A stretch of DNA of 64,000 nucleotides, from the IMG/VR virus record IMGVR_UViG_3300049460_000121, positions 62,001 through 126,000 of that record. The stretch is one strand, 5' to 3'. The stretch is from a virus. Made by a program: the position numbers and the translations under genes. This document shows, piece by piece, positions 2,693 through 62,277 of this stretch (positions are counted from its first letter, which is position 1; each line of letters opens with the position of its first letter). Under the pieces are notes generated by a model, which saw only the letters and a program-made list of their open reading frames with translations, made no database searches and had not been told where the DNA came from.

Positions 2693-2734
2693 AGCATAGA
2701 CACCCCTGGGCGCAAACCCAGGGGTGTCTATGCT
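2693..2734. terminator. Convergent hairpin, 18-bp perfect stem
   Basis: AGCATAGACACCCCTGGG pairs perfectly with the matching arm across a six-base loop. It sits exactly between the convergent genes ending at 2690 and 2743. There is no T-run on either side, so it may act as a barrier or RNA 3' end rather than a textbook intrinsic terminator. The same GCATAGA start of the stem recurs in the hairpins at 44686 and 49162. Confidence 0.75.
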
Positions 2735-2742
2735 CACCACCT

Positions 2743-3291
2743 TTAGGAGGGTAACGTATTGCCGTTCTTGTTGCCCCGTTTGCTGCCTTTCGGTTGCTGC
2801 TGCTTATTAGCAGCCATCTCCTCCAGGTTCTTACGCATCTTGGCTGCTTCTTCTTCCTCTGCCTTACGGACCTTCCTGCCATCTTCCAGGAGCTTGTCCA
2901 GGAACCAGCGGGGGAATTGCAACAGATCCATGAGTGAGGTATTCGTCAGCTCTGGGAGGCGGCACGCCACCAACTCTAAAGTCATCAACTCAAGCCGACT
3001 ACCCGTGATCGCGTTTTCAGCTGGATGCATCCCGATGATCGATAACGGATCGTCGAGCATGTGCGCATCGTGGTCGAAGATGCCGTAGTACTGATCGTAC
3101 GTCTCCATCATCGACAACTGAGCCGTCCAGTCATCCTTACCCTGCCACGACAAGAGGTTTTCCATAATCGGACTACCGTTGGCGTACGGGAACTTCTTGC
3201 GACCAAAGCCTAGCAGCGAGACGTGATGGTATTCACGCTTGCCTTCGAGGGTTACCCGCCAGCACGCTTGATTTTGTGGTGGATTAGGGTA
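2743..3291 (-). CDS. Downstream part of a -1 frameshift fusion (182 codons; internal ATG at 3165 would give 140 aa)
   Basis: Read in its own frame, an ATG at 3165 would give a 140-residue protein, but that ATG has no convincing ribosome site. The frame is open without a stop back to 3291, the last T of the T8 run in the upstream gene. A -1 slip there joins the two frames into a product of about 796 residues. The segment contains a helix-rich stretch resembling the end of tail assembly chaperone extensions (FPRWFLDKLLE) and a lysine/glutamate/glutamine-rich coiled-coil-like tail. I infer that this is normally made as a frameshift extension. The alternatives are independent initiation at 3165 or a sequencing error in the homopolymer. 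Confidence 0.6.
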   Translation of the reverse strand, partial: YPNPPQNQACWRVTLEGKREYHHVSLLGFGRKKFPYANGSPIMENLLSWQGKDDWTAQLSMMETYDQYYGIFDHDAHMLDDPLSIIGMHPAENAITGSRLELMTLELVACRLPELTNTSLMDLLQFPRWFLDKLLEDGRKVRKAEEEEAAKMRKNLEEMAANKQQQPKGSKRGNKNGNTLPS

Positions 3292-5132
3292 AAAAAAACT
3301 TCGATTGGGTTGATGCTTACCAGGTGAGGGTGCTTCGACAGCGAGTCACCGGTGAGAGGAACACCGCACGAAGGGCAGGCAGACTTTGGAACCGCTACAG
3401 TGGCGAGGGTCATCGCGTTGATGAACTTCTCGATAGCTTCGGCAATCTTGGCTGTCAGCTCACCATCGTCCGCGAAGGATTCCAGCAGACGGTCCAGGTC
3501 CTGGTCCGCTTTGTACTGGAGTTCGAGGTCGTTGGCTTCGTCACCTTGCAGAACACGAGTCAGCTCGGTCACCAGACCATTTTCTGCGTTCTCGTCCACT
3601 TTAACAACCGCTTCGATCCAGTGGCTGTAGGCCATGACCATCGCGATGTTGTTGGCACGCAGCAGGTAGGTCTGACGGTCAGCCTCGTTCGCGTAGCTGG
3701 TCATCAGCACACGGGCGCGGTTGTCCATCTCGTCCATCCACGCAGTCGCCTGACGCTCGTAGTCAGCCAGCGTAGGAACACGCATCTTGACTTTGAGGGT
3801 TGGGCTGATGTCGATGTAACGGCTGACTTCAGGACGAATGCTCTCCTGATAGGCCTTGACCGTCTTGATGTCGACACGGGCAGAACGTTTGGCCATCAAC
3901 GCGAACTGGTTCTCGTCGATGCGGCTACGACGCACGAACAACATACGACGCAGGTTGACCTTACGGGTCAACGTTTCACCACAGCCGCCGTGAGTGGTCA
4001 AGCACGGACGGTCGAGGTTGTAGCCATCCGGGAAGATGGTCGCAGCCGCGGCCAGCGTCAGAGGCTCGAGGTCGGTCAAGAGGATGACCTTCTTCAACTC
4101 TTCCACATTGGTGGTGCCGATGGTGGACTTGGTCACGAAACCCAGGATGAAGTCAGCCACAGCTTTGTTCAGGTACACGGACGAAGCTGAGTAAACCAGA
4201 CCGTTGCTGTCACGCGCCATTTCGATCTTCTCATCCAGCAGCTGAGTTTCCAGGCGCAGTTGACTGAGGACCGGAGGACCTTCGAGGGTCAGGTGCATGC
4301 CGGAGTGCCAGAGCACAGCGTTGCCTTCAGTTGCCAGACCCAGTTGGCCACGAATCCGCATCACGGGGTCGTTGCTCTTCGCCGGGTTGTTGGCAGTGAT
4401 GGCGATCTTCTGGTCACCGTTGGTCGGCAGGTTGTTCCAGGTGTCTTCCTCGAAGATCTTGAAGCCGAAACCAACACGCAGCGACTTGGTGTACGAAGTC
4501 ACGTTGTTGATGGCATCGAGTTCTTCAGGGGTGAGGAACACGGTCTTCTGGTCCATGTCGATCCCGGTGAACGGGTGACGTTGGCCGGACTTGACGATGG
4601 CGTAACGGCTTTTCTGCGCTGCGAAGACGCGGCCGTAGACACCACGACGAATCACTTCCAGCTCATTCGCTTCGAAGTTCGACAGCGCGAGCGAGCCGAG
4701 TTTGGCGATGATGGTGTCTTCGAGGACTGGCAGAGTCTCTTCACAGTTCAGACGATTGATCAGTTCACCTGCCCAAGGTGCTGGAGCCACGGGAGCTGCA
4801 TCATCCGCTGGTTCCTCAGCTGCCTGTGCTTGCGCTTCAACCGACGCATCGGCGAGTGCTGGACTGGGAGCTGCGATGACGTTGGTGTTGAGATCTGCGT
4901 CTGTGCTGACAGAAGCGAAGCTCTCAGGTTCTACATCGCCAGCCGGCCATTCATGTCCGTCTTTCGGGAATTCGTTCAGCAGGCCCGAAGGTTGGAGTTC
5001 AACCTCGCCAACCTCTGTGAAGTCGCTTGGACGCGTGGGCTCTTTGGGGAGGTTTTCCCATGCGACGTGTTGTCCTTCAACGTTGCCGACGGTGACGGGC
5101 TCGTCGGCATTGCTCCCTTGATCATCGCTCAT
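3252..5132 (-). CDS. Large tail-assembly or structural protein with C-terminal zinc ribbon, 626 aa
   Basis: The start ATG overlaps the stop of the upstream gene (ATGA), with AAGAGAAAAG ahead of it. The first 130 residues are acidic, proline/alanine-rich and probably disordered. The body is folded-looking and contains a cysteine pair (CLTTHGGCGE). Near the end there is a zinc-ribbon-like CPSCG followed by a hydrophobic segment that runs into VFF at the T8 run. Without slippage, translation stops 12 codons later. A -1 slip continues into 2743-3291. A short and a long product from a slippery site is the arrangement of phage tail assembly chaperones (lambda G/GT, P2 E/E'), although those proteins are far smaller. 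The function is therefore inferred from architecture only. Confidence 0.65.
   Translation of the reverse strand: MSDDQGSNADEPVTVGNVEGQHVAWENLPKEPTRPSDFTEVGEVELQPSGLLNEFPKDGHEWPAGDVEPESFASVSTDADLNTNVIAAPSPALADASVEAQAQAAEEPADDAAPVAPAPWAGELINRLNCEETLPVLEDTIIAKLGSLALSNFEANELEVIRRGVYGRVFAAQKSRYAIVKSGQRHPFTGIDMDQKTVFLTPEELDAINNVTSYTKSLRVGFGFKIFEEDTWNNLPTNGDQKIAITANNPAKSNDPVMRIRGQLGLATEGNAVLWHSGMHLTLEGPPVLSQLRLETQLLDEKIEMARDSNGLVYSASSVYLNKAVADFILGFVTKSTIGTTNVEELKKVILLTDLEPLTLAAAATIFPDGYNLDRPCLTTHGGCGETLTRKVNLRRMLFVRRSRIDENQFALMAKRSARVDIKTVKAYQESIRPEVSRYIDISPTLKVKMRVPTLADYERQATAWMDEMDNRARVLMTSYANEADRQTYLLRANNIAMVMAYSHWIEAVVKVDENAENGLVTELTRVLQGDEANDLELQYKADQDLDRLLESFADDGELTAKIAEAIEKFINAMTLATVAVPKSACPSCGVPLTGDSLSKHPHLVSINPIEVFFTLIHHKIKRAGG
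3291..3298 (-). promoter_or_regulatory. Probable programmed -1 ribosomal frameshift site (T8)
   Basis: On the minus strand the sequence is GTTTTTTTTACC. The zero-frame codons GTT TTT TTT ACC contain the classical slippery heptamer T TTT TTT. After a -1 slip the next codon is TAC and the frame stays open for 182 codons to the stop at 2743. Both frames were translated by eye across the junction. No pseudoknot was evaluated. Confidence 0.6.
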
Positions 5133-5659
5133 TCACTTTTCTCTTCGATGGTTACAGGTTGGTTGTAGGCGGCTACGATGTCGAGCATCGTCTCCAGACC
5201 CTTCAATGTGTGATTCGCCAACTGGCGTGAGGCCAGCTTACGCTTGTGGCTGTCCGGAGCCCACGGTTGCAGGCGGTCGCTACGGGTGTTCACGAAGGAC
5301 ACAGCTACTGTGCCGTCGAAAGCACCTCCAGGCAAGGACGTGATCAGAGCAACCGTCTGGTTACCGATCTCGATACCCTGGATGCTCACTTCGTGGCGTT
5401 CGATGCGCACCACGGCCTGCTTGTTCACCATGTCCAGGAAATCTTGCACCGGGGTCATCATCGGGCCGATGGTGGTTTCAGGCGCAATGTGGTGCGAACC
5501 GATGAGGCGAACCAGGCTGGCCGTCAGCGGCTTCTCATCCAAACCGAAGATCGAAGCAACCTCAGTGACCAGCGCTTTGGTCAGTCCGTTCAGGACTTTC
5601 TCCGACACCGGGGTGGAGACCTGAGGGAGGATGCTGTATGTCACTTTCTTTTTATGCAT
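5129..5659 (-). CDS. Unknown protein, 176 aa
   Basis: A longer reading frame begins at 5746, but that part lies inside the upstream gene. The ATG at 5659 overlaps the upstream stop as ATGCATAA, typical of translational coupling, and is preferred. The protein is mixed alpha/beta with no recognised motif. It lies in a tight four-gene minus-strand operon with overlapping stops and starts, upstream of the frameshift pair. Its role is unknown; tail or baseplate assembly is a guess from the neighbours. Confidence 0.65.
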   Translation of the reverse strand: MHKKKVTYSILPQVSTPVSEKVLNGLTKALVTEVASIFGLDEKPLTASLVRLIGSHHIAPETTIGPMMTPVQDFLDMVNKQAVVRIERHEVSIQGIEIGNQTVALITSLPGGAFDGTVAVSFVNTRSDRLQPWAPDSHKRKLASRQLANHTLKGLETMLDIVAAYNQPVTIEEKSE

Positions 5660-6107
5660 GTGCTGGTTCTTCGCTCTTGTTAAGGATCTCGTCGTAGTCA
5701 CCCGCGGATTTAGTGAGGGTGGCCGTAATGCGATCGTTGAGGTCAATGTACTTGAGACCGTGCATCGTCAAGTCCATGTTGTGTTTTGACAGATCGGCGT
5801 TCTTGCTTGGCCGACCTTTCAGGATTTTATCGAACTCAGTATCGAGCACGGTACGTTCAGCGCTGAACTTGTCGAAGTCCTGGGCGATGATGGTACCCAA
5901 TGCGAGGATCTTCGGGACATCCTCGACGCGGCCTTGTTCCTTGAGCGTACGGAGAGACTCAGGCATCTGAACAATTGGTTCAGCAGCGGCGCGCAGAGAG
6001 AAAGTAACGGAATCTTTAAGACCGCGAGTCGACTCTTCGACCTCATCGATCTTCTTCTTGTGATTCACGTTTGACGTACGGTATGAAGGCGAGCGCTTCG
6101 AGGACAT
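5652..6107 (-). CDS. Unknown charged protein, 151 aa
   Basis: This is the first gene of the minus-strand block. A GTG at 6116 is in frame, but the ATG at 6107 has GAGGTG at proper spacing and is preferred. The product is lysine- and glutamate-rich, without membrane segments, and looks helical with coiled-coil potential in the middle third. It is divergent from the gene at 6223; the roughly 115-base AT-rich gap between them should hold both promoters. The function is unknown. Confidence 0.65.
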   Translation of the reverse strand: MSSKRSPSYRTSNVNHKKKIDEVEESTRGLKDSVTFSLRAAAEPIVQMPESLRTLKEQGRVEDVPKILALGTIIAQDFDKFSAERTVLDTEFDKILKGRPSKNADLSKHNMDLTMHGLKYIDLNDRITATLTKSAGDYDEILNKSEEPAHA

Positions 6108-27916: not shown

Positions 27917-27960
27917 AAAAAAAGAAAGGGAGTAGGGGAGCCGAAGCTCCCCAGTCCTTT
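27917..27960 (-). terminator. Terminator of the beta-prime N-terminal operon
   Basis: GGGGAGC-CGAA-GCTCCCC with further outer pairing is followed on the minus strand by CTTTCTTTTTTTGT. The 27 bases at 27935-27961 are identical to 62999-63025. Confidence 0.85.
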
Positions 27961-28582
27961 ACAACGTCTTGCGGGTTGGACTGCCAGGATCCTGCTTGCC
28001 CCGGTCCAGAATCTCTGCGAGAGTCCGGTGGGTGTCGCGGGCGGCATCTTTCTCGTTCTGGTTGAACTTGGCGTCGCCGTGTTCATCCACAATTCCAAGG
28101 TAAGTAACGAAAGTATCTTCGCCCTCTTCACCTTCGGCATGCACACCGTTGTAGATCTCACGGTACATGTCGTGTTCCCGACCGATGCTGTCGCGCTCGT
28201 CGTCTTCGTACAGACCGTCGTACCCATCTGCCTGACCTTTATACCACAGGGCCCGGTAGCGTGGGAACGCCATGACGATTGCGCGGTTACGCGGTTTGGC
28301 ATTCTGGAAGTCGCCCAGGTCCACCAGGGGAAGAATGCGGTCTTCATCCCAGCGTTTACCGAAGCGATCCCGCATACCTTCCACACGATCGCGGATGGAG
28401 CTGAAGTCGAAGTTGTCCAACGCTTCTTTCGCGCGGCCCAGGTACCGTGAAGCAAAGTTCCCAGCCGTGCGCGCGACTTTGTCGATACGATCCCGGAAGA
28501 ACTCCAGGTCGTTACGCGACATCATCCCGTGTGTCGATGCGTGTATCACATCGGCGTCACCGTCGCTCACAATGTACGCCAT
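27959..28582 (-). CDS. Unknown charged protein, 207 aa
   Basis: GGAGGG precedes the ATG. The product is rich in Asp, Glu and Arg, with a 15-residue segment of aromatic and hydrophobic residues (IVMAFPRYRALWYKG) in the centre. The Asp/Arg-rich halves are compositionally close to the R/D-rich proteins nearby. It lies six bases downstream of the beta-prime N-terminal gene, in the position of phiKZ gp56. Unknown function. Confidence 0.7.
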   Translation of the reverse strand: MAYIVSDGDADVIHASTHGMMSRNDLEFFRDRIDKVARTAGNFASRYLGRAKEALDNFDFSSIRDRVEGMRDRFGKRWDEDRILPLVDLGDFQNAKPRNRAIVMAFPRYRALWYKGQADGYDGLYEDDERDSIGREHDMYREIYNGVHAEGEEGEDTFVTYLGIVDEHGDAKFNQNEKDAARDTHRTLAEILDRGKQDPGSPTRKTL

Positions 28583-56714: not shown

Positions 56715-56734
56715 GGTTTGTAAAATATTAAAAC
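56715..56734 (-). promoter_or_regulatory. AT-rich promoter candidate for the virion operon
   Basis: Minus-strand GTTTTAATATTTTACAAACC lies about 20-39 bases upstream of the ATG at 56695 in the 167-base divergent gap with the sheath gene. The TTTTACA core recurs in the window. Confidence 0.35.
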
Positions 56735-56862
56735 AGCTGCTGTAGGAGCTGATTTAAAATAGTATGCGTACGCTGCGACATTTGGCGTATTCCACCAATG
56801 TGGTAGCGACCATACAATTCCTCGATTGTTCTGCGCGGAACTAAACTCCTGGGAGTATAAAC

Positions 56863-58914
56863 ATGTCTGTAAGTACTTACAGTTCTTTGCCACGGACGGT
56901 TTTCCGTGGTATCAAGGACGAATCGGCGGTCAACCTGGTTATGCCAGGCGAAAGCCTTCCGATCCGCGTGCCACTGTTTTTCACCCTGGCTGCCTGGGGC
57001 GAAACCGACAAAGCACGTTACGTGGACGGCGATGGTCAGGAATTGCTTTACGGCAAAGAGTTGACCAACCCGCGTTCGAAATTCTTCACCCACCAGAGTC
57101 AGTTCATTCGCTCTCACTTCGCCGCTGGCGGCAAGGCGCTCTTGCAGCGTATCGTGCCTGCCGATGCGAAACGTGCGACTGCCCGCCTGTCCCTGGACAT
57201 GGTTGCTGATGAGCTGCCGGTTTACGAGCGTAATGCTGACGGTACCTTCAAGCTCGACGCACAAGGCGCCAAGATCCTGGTTGTCGGCGAAACCATCGAA
57301 GGCTTCCGTCTTCAGTGGAAGATGGTCGAAATCCCAGCCAACGGCTTCGGCGTTGGTGTGGCTGGTGAAGGCGGTCTGGTTTCCGGTAAAGACGGTGCTA
57401 TCTCCGTCCTGACTCCGGTCATCGACCTCAATGGTCGTCACATCGGTGAGAAAGGCAAGAACCTCGGTTTCCGCCTGAGCGCTCCGACTGTTAACACCGT
57501 TGATCCGGCTGACGCCGATCTGAGCGAAAACCTGGGCTCGTTCCTGTATCGCATCCAGATGGTTCAGCGTACCGACGCCAAGTCGACCGCTCGCCTGCAA
57601 AGCAACCTCGACGGTGGCAACTTCGTCGACTTCAGCCTGAAGAAAGGTGCCGTGGACCTGTCCACCGACATCGAGTACTACGGTGCGAAGAACATCATCC
57701 GTTCGTACGAAACCACTGACCTGACTCAGTTCACCGGTTTCGGCAACTTCGAAAAGCTGAACATCTACGATGAAGGCATTGCCGCCATCCTGGAACAGCT
57801 GAAAGATGCGGAAGAAGCGCACACCGGCGACGAGATCGCTGATGCGCACCTGCTCAACATCCTGACGGGTGTGGACGTCAACGGCGTTCCGTACAACACC
57901 TTCGTTGTTGAAGGTCCTCAGGCTGGTGGTCTGCTGTTCACCGAAACCTCGAACTACTTCCTGCAAGGCGGTAGCGACGGCACCATCGGTGTGGCCGAGT
58001 ACAACGTCCTCGTTGACAACGTGCTGGCTGGTCTGTCCGACGCTGCGTTCCCTTACGCTGACATCGCGCGCATGCCGTACGATTCGGTTTGGGATTCGGG
58101 CTTCCCGGTTGACACCAAGTTGAAGTTCGCCAACTTCCACGCGATCCGTCCAGACGTGTTCATCCACGCCTGCACCCAGGACGTGCTGAAGCCGCTGAAC
58201 AGCGCTGCCGCGGATTCGTCCATCGGCGTGACCCTGCGTTCGCACTTCCGTGCATCGCAAGAGTCGGCTGAGTTCGGCACCAAGGCCTGCCGCTATGCGG
58301 TGGTAATGTCGGCTGGTCGTTTGATCAACGACAACTACGATGGTCTGGTTCCGTTCCTGGAATGGTTGCTGATCAAAGGCGCCGAGTACATGTCGTCCGC
58401 TGACGGCTCGATGAACTCCGACTTCGCTTTCGGGCGTGGTGAGCAGAACATCGTGACCCGTTACCGTGATCACAACGCCGGCACCAAGCTGGTTGGCTCC
58501 CGCAAGAACGATTGGGATAACGGCCTGAACTACGCTGAGTGGTTCGACATGTCTCGCCTGTTCTACGCAGGTATCCAGTCGATCTACGAAACCCACACCT
58601 CCATCCTCCACGGTTACCTGAACACTCAGATTGCTTGCAACCTGACGCGTATCGGTCACATCGTGTGGCGTGAGATGTCGGGCGACAGCCAACTGACCGA
58701 CGAAGAGTTCCTGGACGCAGTTACCGCCAAGGTCAACGAGCGTACCACTGGCAAGTACGACGGCCGGGTGACCATCACTCCGAACGCCTACTACAATGCC
58801 CTGGACGAAGCGTTGGGCTTCAGCTGGCACCTGGACATCGGCATGGCTGGTGACAACATCCGCACTGTGCAGAACCTCGCGGTGATCGCACAACGTCGTC
58901 GTAACGAGGAGTAA
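56863..58914 (+). CDS. Tail sheath protein
   Basis: GGGAGTATAAAC precedes the ATG. The 683-residue product is followed at once by a tube-type gene, the invariant sheath-tube order of contractile tails, and by size and place it matches phiKZ gp29. The C-terminal part (residues about 590-683, NACNLTRIGH...NIRTVQNL) has the look of the conserved sheath domain that interlocks with neighbours. Codon use is strongly biased, as expected for an abundant virion protein. No cysteine-rich or enzymatic motif. The identification is by context and composition. Confidence 0.8.
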   Translation: MSVSTYSSLPRTVFRGIKDESAVNLVMPGESLPIRVPLFFTLAAWGETDKARYVDGDGQELLYGKELTNPRSKFFTHQSQFIRSHFAAGGKALLQRIVPADAKRATARLSLDMVADELPVYERNADGTFKLDAQGAKILVVGETIEGFRLQWKMVEIPANGFGVGVAGEGGLVSGKDGAISVLTPVIDLNGRHIGEKGKNLGFRLSAPTVNTVDPADADLSENLGSFLYRIQMVQRTDAKSTARLQSNLDGGNFVDFSLKKGAVDLSTDIEYYGAKNIIRSYETTDLTQFTGFGNFEKLNIYDEGIAAILEQLKDAEEAHTGDEIADAHLLNILTGVDVNGVPYNTFVVEGPQAGGLLFTETSNYFLQGGSDGTIGVAEYNVLVDNVLAGLSDAAFPYADIARMPYDSVWDSGFPVDTKLKFANFHAIRPDVFIHACTQDVLKPLNSAAADSSIGVTLRSHFRASQESAEFGTKACRYAVVMSAGRLINDNYDGLVPFLEWLLIKGAEYMSSADGSMNSDFAFGRGEQNIVTRYRDHNAGTKLVGSRKNDWDNGLNYAEWFDMSRLFYAGIQSIYETHTSILHGYLNTQIACNLTRIGHIVWREMSGDSQLTDEEFLDAVTAKVNERTTGKYDGRVTITPNAYYNALDEALGFSWHLDIGMAGDNIRTVQNLAVIAQRRRNEE

Positions 58915-58920
58915 TAGCGT

Positions 58921-59787
58921 ATGGCACGTTATAAGGAGACGTTGACCAACAAGGCCTACGCAGGAACAGCACAGACTAATGTGCTCAACCTCGCAGTCCA
59001 AGGTCAGCAGGGCTATATCACCGATATGGCCTACTACCCTTCGGCTACGGATTACATCCGCAAGCCGTTGATCGTGAAGGTTCTTCAGGCACCGGTAGGT
59101 TTGACCTACATGCCTAACGCCGCGGCTTACATCGCAGCGTACAAGAACCTGATCGAGAACTGGATGCAGTCCTGGTCCGGTTTCAACCGCACCCTGGCCG
59201 TTTCGGTAAACGAAACCCAGATCGGTAACTCGGGTGAGTCCTTCCAGACTCCATCCCGTGTGGCTCGTGCTCGTTCGCAGATCACCTCGACCATCGTCGA
59301 GAAAGATCGTCGTCCAGTGATTCGCTTCCTGGAAGACTACACCCGCTACCTGATCATGGATCCGGATGTGGGCCATGCGCTCCTGAGCGGCGTGAGCGAC
59401 AAGTTCACCGATCAACTCGCCGACATCTACGGCGGTACCATCATCGCGTTCGAACCAGACAAGACTTTCCGCTACGTGGAAAACGCCTTCCTGGTCACCA
59501 ACTTCTTCCCGTACAACGACATCGGTGAGAACATTGGTAGCCGTCAGTTGCAACAAGACGGTGAGATCGCGACGTACAACCTGTCGTGGACTGGCTTCCA
59601 GAAAGTTGGTTACGCCGTGGACAAGTTGGCGCAAGCCTTCATGGACGCTCAGCGTGTTACTGGTATCGATCCTTCGTACCAGCCAACATTCGTCCAAGGT
59701 GTCGACAGCAACGTCGGCGCAGTGAAAACTGGTTACAGCGAACAAATCAACTTGCTGAAAAGCTCGCTGGTTTCGCCGGGTCAGTAA
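58921..59787 (+). CDS. Tail tube protein
   Basis: The 288-residue product lies six bases behind the sheath gene. It is beta-rich with few charged clusters, and biased codon use suggests abundance. It corresponds in place and size to phiKZ gp30, the inner tube of the contractile tail. It is followed by an intrinsic terminator, so sheath and tube form one late transcript. Confidence 0.8.
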   Translation: MARYKETLTNKAYAGTAQTNVLNLAVQGQQGYITDMAYYPSATDYIRKPLIVKVLQAPVGLTYMPNAAAYIAAYKNLIENWMQSWSGFNRTLAVSVNETQIGNSGESFQTPSRVARARSQITSTIVEKDRRPVIRFLEDYTRYLIMDPDVGHALLSGVSDKFTDQLADIYGGTIIAFEPDKTFRYVENAFLVTNFFPYNDIGENIGSRQLQQDGEIATYNLSWTGFQKVGYAVDKLAQAFMDAQRVTGIDPSYQPTFVQGVDSNVGAVKTGYSEQINLLKSSLVSPGQ

Positions 59788-61488: not shown

Positions 61489-62277
61489 TCAGGTCCACGC
61501 GTTTAGCGTGCTGTGAACAAACGAGGTCTTGTCAACCAGCGAAGTTACGAAATGACCGCTGATACCGTTGGAGAATTCCACCAGGTCCATCAATTTCTTG
61601 CTGCTGCTCATTACGACGTACTTACCGTCAACCAGAGCAACAGTTGCAACTTCACCGGATTCGGCTTTAACGACGATGGTGTCCTGGACACTGGTGCCGT
61701 TCAGCGAAGCGTAGGTGTAAACGCCAGCCAGGGTGTTCGGTAGACGATTGGTCACGATCTGTGCGACGTCAGTCATGCCGTCACGCTGGGTGTAGAAAGC
61801 GCGCAGATCGAGTTTGTCTTCGATCTTCTCCAGCGTCTTGTAGAAGGTTGCCTTGGAGGCGTTCGCCAGGGCGCTCTTGACTTCAGCCTTGGACAGTTGT
61901 TCGCGGATGGTTGCACCGGCTGGGGTGCTGAAGGTCTGAACGAATTCGATCAGGCCGGCAAAGAATGTAGTGGCGTCGATTTTACCGACACGGCTCCAAC
62001 CCATGATCTTCTTGACCACGTCGCCGACGTAGCCTTGTTTCTGAGCCTGGTAGGTGGTGACGCCTTGTTCGATGTCGATGAGCTTGGACACACGGTAGCT
62101 TGCGTTAGCCGCATTGATGGTCAGATGTTCGGTGGTATCGCCCTTGAACAGAACCACGGTGTACGGGAAGACGCCTTCTTGACCACAGACACAACCTTCG
62201 ACAGTACGGTCTGCCAGAGAAGCCAGGGTGACCCAGAGGGAGTGAGCTGCGAGAGGATTGCTAACAGTGATTTGCAT
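61489..62277 (-). CDS. Unknown protein, 262 aa
   Basis: The ribosome site is weak. Soluble protein with a beta-rich N-terminus including CVCG near residue 29, a helical centre, and a beta-rich C-terminus. Codon use is biased as in abundant phage proteins. It follows the 153-residue gene, separated by a hairpin. Function unknown. Confidence 0.65.
   Translation of the reverse strand: MQITVSNPLAAHSLWVTLASLADRTVEGCVCGQEGVFPYTVVLFKGDTTEHLTINAANASYRVSKLIDIEQGVTTYQAQKQGYVGDVVKKIMGWSRVGKIDATTFFAGLIEFVQTFSTPAGATIREQLSKAEVKSALANASKATFYKTLEKIEDKLDLRAFYTQRDGMTDVAQIVTNRLPNTLAGVYTYASLNGTSVQDTIVVKAESGEVATVALVDGKYVVMSSSKKLMDLVEFSNGISGHFVTSLVDKTSFVHSTLNAWT

Follow-up and report, generated by a model that had tools for sequence, protein, structure and literature searches.

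Overlapping reading frames at the locus

The window analyzed here (the whole stretch of 64,000 nucleotides, positions 62,001–126,000 of the 267,467-base record IMGVR_UViG_3300049460_000121) comes from a phiKZ-like jumbo phage, and the locus of interest is described in minus-strand coordinates throughout. Near its 3' end, the 0-frame gene reads GAA GTT TTT TTT ACC CTA ... TAA, with the run of eight T at 3298–3291 and the stop codon at 3254–3252 (Table 1). If the two tRNAs on T TTT TTT were to slip back by one base, the next codon would be TAC (3291–3289), and the -1 frame has no stop between 3291 and the TAA at 2745–2743. The predicted fusion therefore comprises 614 + 182 = 796 aa. As expected of a -1 frameshift site, the heptamer is in phase, allows re-pairing of the tRNAs and lies before the 0-frame stop, and the -1 frame beyond it is open.

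A first-pass annotation had reported the T8 run, with T TTT TTT in the 0 frame of a 626-residue gene, as well as the 182 open codons leading down to 2743 and a fusion of about 796 residues; all of these were read again in the sequence. It had also described the ATG at 3165 as lacking a ribosome site, and no Shine-Dalgarno (SD)-like sequence is present in the preceding 18 nt (GCCAACGGTAGTCCGATT). The zinc ribbon that it placed just before the slip corresponds to a CPxC motif (C586/C589), for which a zinc ribbon is only a possibility. The motif is missing in the relatives FLC9 and L006 and is kept in most others.

Table 1. Features of the slip locus, with the T4 genes used for comparison
Feature	Position	Strand	Basis
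0-frame gene, 626-aa short form, phiKZ gp77 family (phrog_4585)	3252–5132	-	ORF and profile match, E 2.6e-76
Slip heptamer T TTT TTT, within the T8 run 3291–3298	3291–3297	-	Sequence; same codons in 88/88 relatives
Extension in the -1 frame (182 codons and a stop), member of the phiKZ gp76.4 family, phrog_12109	2743–3291	-	Profile match, E 5.7e-15; alignment with 31 relatives
Overlap 3' of the slip, read in both frames	3252–3290	-	Sequence
Putative -1 coding stretch, 0-frame stop to first possible start	3168–3251	-	Codon-position-3 differences versus L015 and L016
CPSC motif (C586, C589), possible zinc ribbon, 5' of the slip	3366–3377	-	Translation; most relatives
First in-frame ATG of the extension, without SD	3163–3165	-	Likely gene-caller start of a 140-aa ORF
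Preceding gene, whose stop and the gp77-like start overlap in ATGA	5129–5746	-	Sequence; position matches phiKZ gp78 (by gene order)
Perfect 18-bp hairpin past the -1 stop, probable shared terminator of converging genes	2693–2734		Read from sequence
T4 genes 26 and 51	L014 7803–8429 and 8480–9229	divergently oriented	208- and 249-aa products

Some other features of the window should be mentioned. At 1353–2690 on the plus strand, a 445-aa protein matches the phiKZ gp86 vertex-binding family just under the cut-off (E 2.6e-5, 23.8 versus 26 bits). At 56728–59745 on the minus strand lies a 1005-aa ORF that matched no PHROG at E 0.001, in a neighborhood that is otherwise well matched. Another slip candidate, T TTT TTG at 27922 (27917–27923, minus strand), was rejected: it is located in a spurious ORF and is the T-run of a probable terminator, following a GC-rich hairpin (GGGGAGCTTCGGCTCCCC) after the gene at 28582–27959.

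Protein family and database records

Both products belong to protein families of phiKZ-like jumbo phages. The profile matched by the 626-aa product is also matched by 28 of 28 aligned relatives, and that of the extension by 32 of 32. Translated searches of phage records returned 230 matches for the 626-aa product and 22 for the extension, all below 60% identity, while a nucleotide search of the same records with the window gave no match. In the first broad alignment, conservation was too low in every stretch to support a collection scan, and the A5 scan was without a match. The matched pairs include phiKZ gp77/gp76.4, PhiPA3 gp074/gp073, 201phi2-1 gp136/gp135, EL gp047/gp048 and SPN3US gp39/gp40, among others. 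The pairs of phiKZ (gp77 being PHIKZ077), PhiPA3, 201phi2-1 and SPN3US agree with the window in family, gene order, slip codons and -1 extension; they differ from it only by sequence divergence and are annotated as two hypothetical genes. In the database records of the relatives examined, the pair is shown as two genes and no frameshift is annotated. Likewise, a search of the open-access literature, with subscription papers mostly outside its scope, yielded no description of frameshifting at phiKZ gp77/76.4.

Conservation of the slip site

The first-pass annotation had proposed comparing homologous pairs for a conserved slippery run and overlap. We carried out this comparison on 88 homologous locus entries from phage records and IMG/VR, among them phiKZ, EL, PhiPA3, SPN3US-like phages and Goslar, in which some genomes were entered twice; a limit of 80% identity left a non-redundant set of 52 entries. 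Both the run and the overlap are kept throughout: an in-phase N TTT TT[TCG] occupies the same two codons in every one of the 88 entries (52 non-redundant), even though the upstream proteins are mostly only 18–26% identical to that of the window. The slip codons specify Phe-Phe, in one entry Phe-Leu, within a motif resembling VFFTL close to the C-terminus. The codon for the first Phe is TTT in 52/52 genes, compared with 28% (254/911) of the other Phe codons in the same genes, and the base preceding it is T in 85% of the 52 genes versus 16% elsewhere. At other codons of these genes, an in-phase N TTT TTN occurs only twice in 28,427. Because every entry carries the heptamer against this background, the site is, as judged by sequence comparison, more than a chance occurrence; it is noted that the counts come from related sequences and are not independent trials.

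In every entry the -1 frame opens into a homologous extension of 149–182 aa, remaining open for 126–169 codons past the 0-frame stop in the relatives, whereas their +1 frame meets an early stop in most cases. Across the 52 relatives, the 0-frame products measure 496–655 aa and the fusions 645–796 aa. The number of 0-frame codons after the slip ranges from 8 to 44 (median 15) while the slip position is constant. Long tails of this kind are present in Serratia phage PCH45 (44 codons) and Klebsiella phage FBKp24 (37 codons), so that the two forms in these phages share a long dual-frame stretch.

Predicted translation of the -1 frame ahead of any start codon

In the window, no ATG, GTG or TTG is present in the -1 frame from the slip to 3165, and no SD-like sequence was found before any start in the -1 ORF. 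Two near relatives, L015 and L016 (86% and 78% amino acid identity), have the same slip site. The stretch from the 0-frame stop to the ATG was compared pairwise among these three sequences by codon position. Differences at position 3 of the -1 frame number 7, 9 and 9 in the three pairs, versus 1–3 at positions 1 and 2; when the same differences are counted in the other frames, the excess shifts to position 1 or 2. By this measure, the sequence from the 0-frame stop to the first possible start has evolved in the way expected of -1-frame coding DNA. An earlier ATG is present within it in L015 and is absent from the window and L016. In the window, this stretch could be reached by ribosomes only by way of the slip, unless an unusual start codon were used. 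The extension of PhiPA3 aligns with those of Pseudomonas-phage relatives from residue 1 at the slip, within the overlap with the upstream gene. The simplest explanation of such upstream -1 coding would be entry through a slip at the T-run.

Proposed ribosomal frameshifting and alternative explanations

We propose that the majority of ribosomes would reach the stop of the 626-codon gene and produce the short form, while a minority would slip back one base at U UUU UUU (3297–3291) and read 182 more codons. The resulting 796-aa long form would have residues 1–614 in common with the short form. On the comparative evidence, which strongly supports the programmed -1 frameshift of the first-pass annotation, the frameshift is almost certainly real. 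Some known -1 frameshift sites work without a stimulator. Neither a conserved downstream RNA structure nor an upstream SD stimulator was found here in excess over controls. The expected slip rate is therefore lower, with the classification as a -1 frameshift unaffected.

Other origins of the two-frame arrangement have to be considered. Homopolymers are error prone, and an assembly or sequencing error in the T8 run could split one gene into two, in which case, as the first-pass annotation had pointed out, homologues should have a single uninterrupted frame. None was encountered among the 88 locus entries. The two-frame arrangement is present in all of them, across many independent genomes, and the recurrence of the same site in L015 and L016, which are separate IMG/VR contigs, also means that it is not an assembly error; the relatives thus refute this reading, whose probability is negligible. 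Public records do show two genes; on a two-gene reading, the ATG at 3165 would be the start of the downstream protein and the T-run would be incidental. An internal start could also act alongside the slip, since an SD-like start is found somewhere in the -1 ORF of 18 of the 52 relatives. However, that ATG lacks an SD sequence in the window, the -1 frame is under coding constraint ahead of any start, and the heptamer is universal, yet the distance between the slip and the first possible start differs among the relatives, from 8 to 151 codons. Two independently started genes are hence highly improbable.

Polymerase slippage on a run of this length (T8) is conceivable, and phiKZ-like phages transcribe their late genes with an unusual multisubunit RNA polymerase. 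Transcriptional slippage would create a mixed mRNA pool in which ribosomes read a shifted message without slipping themselves. Several relatives, however, have T runs of only six or five, as in PhiPA3 (GTG TTT TTT ACC), PA1C (ATA TTT TTC ACG) and Noxifer (GAG TTT TTC ATG), and what is conserved is only the phased TTT TTN pair. The short runs together with the retained phase make ribosomal -1 slippage the better reading, and transcriptional slippage appears very unlikely.

Possible relation to T4 gp26 and gp51

In the predicted structure of the 0-frame product, the N-terminus is disordered and the fold becomes confident at about residue 150 (mostly pLDDT 75–95; pTM 0.72). A fold search of BFVD placed phiKZ-type phage proteins at the top; lower on the list is a 'Baseplate hub assembly protein, bacteriophage T4-like' (probability 1.00, E 1.2e-3, TM 0.52 on target) and, weakly, a 'Baseplate protein'. 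The same search with the -1 extension returned mainly unnamed phiKZ-type phage proteins. No match in the PDB was found by sequence or by fold. Against PF12322 (T4_baseplate), the 0-frame product scores 12.1 bits, under the cut-off of 24.5; three of 28 relatives match this family weakly. A PF12322 search of the phage's own genome gave no match, and since the controls were equally silent this result is uninformative. Comparison of the 0-frame product with T4 gp26/gp51 by hhalign gave no decisive match. The C-terminus of T4 gp26, AVPIKCPECG...EFFELL, resembles AVPKSACPSCG...VFFTL in the window, both containing CPxC...FF. By fold and by this C-terminus, the nearest known proteins appear to be those of the T4 gp26/gp51 family.

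T4 gp26 and gp51 are both PF12322 proteins (mutual BLASTP E 2e-6), with about 48 residues of gp51 lying beyond the shared domain, and they look like a short/long pair that arose by gene duplication. They are classed as hub assembly chaperones, with gp51 needed yet absent from the particle, and their roles in hub assembly are described as contradictory or unknown (PMC3004832). The fold match, the gp26-like C-terminus and the requirement for gp51 led us to propose that the short and long forms in the window are a hub/tail-assembly chaperone pair, an assembly-chaperone role that we regard by analogy as moderately probable. The probable relation in fold to T4-like hub assembly proteins suggests that the products could act on the baseplate hub/tape-measure complex, with a minority long form accompanying the short form in the manner of lambda gpG/gpGT.

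It is also conceivable that the frameshift is real and that its products serve the baseplate hub as minor structural components and not as chaperones, the long form capping or diversifying a few copies. The protein is long and predicted to be folded, some relatives are annotated as baseplate or baseplate hub, and genetic work, as cited in PMC3004832, puts T4 gp26 in the hub. Against such a structural role, the 201phi2-1 records note detection by mass spectrometry for the neighbors p138 and p139 and for neither p136 nor p135, the main text of two SPN3US virion papers names gp38 and not gp39 or gp40, and T4 gp51 is not found in the particle that it is needed to make. We consider structural parts rather unlikely. 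Overall, we estimate a probability of about 0.75 that the locus encodes a conserved -1 programmed ribosomal frameshift through which a hub/tail-assembly chaperone is made in a short and a long form.

T4 has two separate genes without a frameshift where the window has one gene with a proposed slip, but in T4 as predicted here a short protein is accompanied by a C-terminally longer one of the same family. The phiKZ-like chaperones may be frameshifted short and long forms of one gp26-like gene, and T4 gp26/gp51 the same pair produced from duplicated genes. This equivalence is a tentative hypothesis only, because the gp51 tail shows no similarity to the -1 extension in hhalign, which also gave no decisive match of the extension to gp51 as a whole.

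Comparison with lambda-type tail assembly chaperones

Frameshifted tail assembly chaperones are of a known kind, according to PMC5009743, which cites Xu, Hendrix and Duda (2004). In lambda gpG/gpGT, ribosomes that slip by -1 near the 3' end of the upstream gene make a C-terminally extended protein beside the short one, and the sequence and comparative evidence indicates that the window is alike. The upstream product in the window has 626 aa, whereas that of lambda-type systems is small. The earlier suggestion of an unusual giant tail assembly chaperone is therefore retained in part: the chaperone role is plausible as an analogy, but the size is normal for this family and no homology to lambda G/GT was detected. 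Neither product matched the lambda G/GT type or another known chaperone family in Pfam.

The genomic position is also different. Lambda-type chaperone genes sit between the tube and tape measure genes. The gene in the window, unlike that of lambda, is not beside a tape measure gene; its neighbors are RNA polymerase and head-type genes. Similarly, SPN3US gp39 (36–38 kb) is far from gp239 (205–212 kb), the tape measure gene. In a scan of 50 kb of SPN3US that include its tape measure, tube and sheath genes, no annotated gene ended in a frameshift candidate, while gp39 gave one. Among jumbo phages, the tail chaperones gp181/gp182 of phage G were recognized by their frameshift signature and not found in virions; they are of the lambda G-T type and near the tape measure gene (PMC8570332), whereas the gene described here is elsewhere.

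Implications

What is new here is another protein family and another genomic place for such a frameshift, in every phiKZ-like relative examined. The two hypothetical genes in the records of phiKZ-like phages are likely one gene with two products. Frameshift-coupled tail-assembly factors would thereby be extended to a family with no detectable sequence relation to gpG, and nucleus-forming jumbo phages would gain a concrete candidate for a tail-assembly chaperone. The comparison also offers a testable idea on T4 gp26/gp51: if it is true, genes 26 and 51 would be the T4 counterpart of lambda G and GT.
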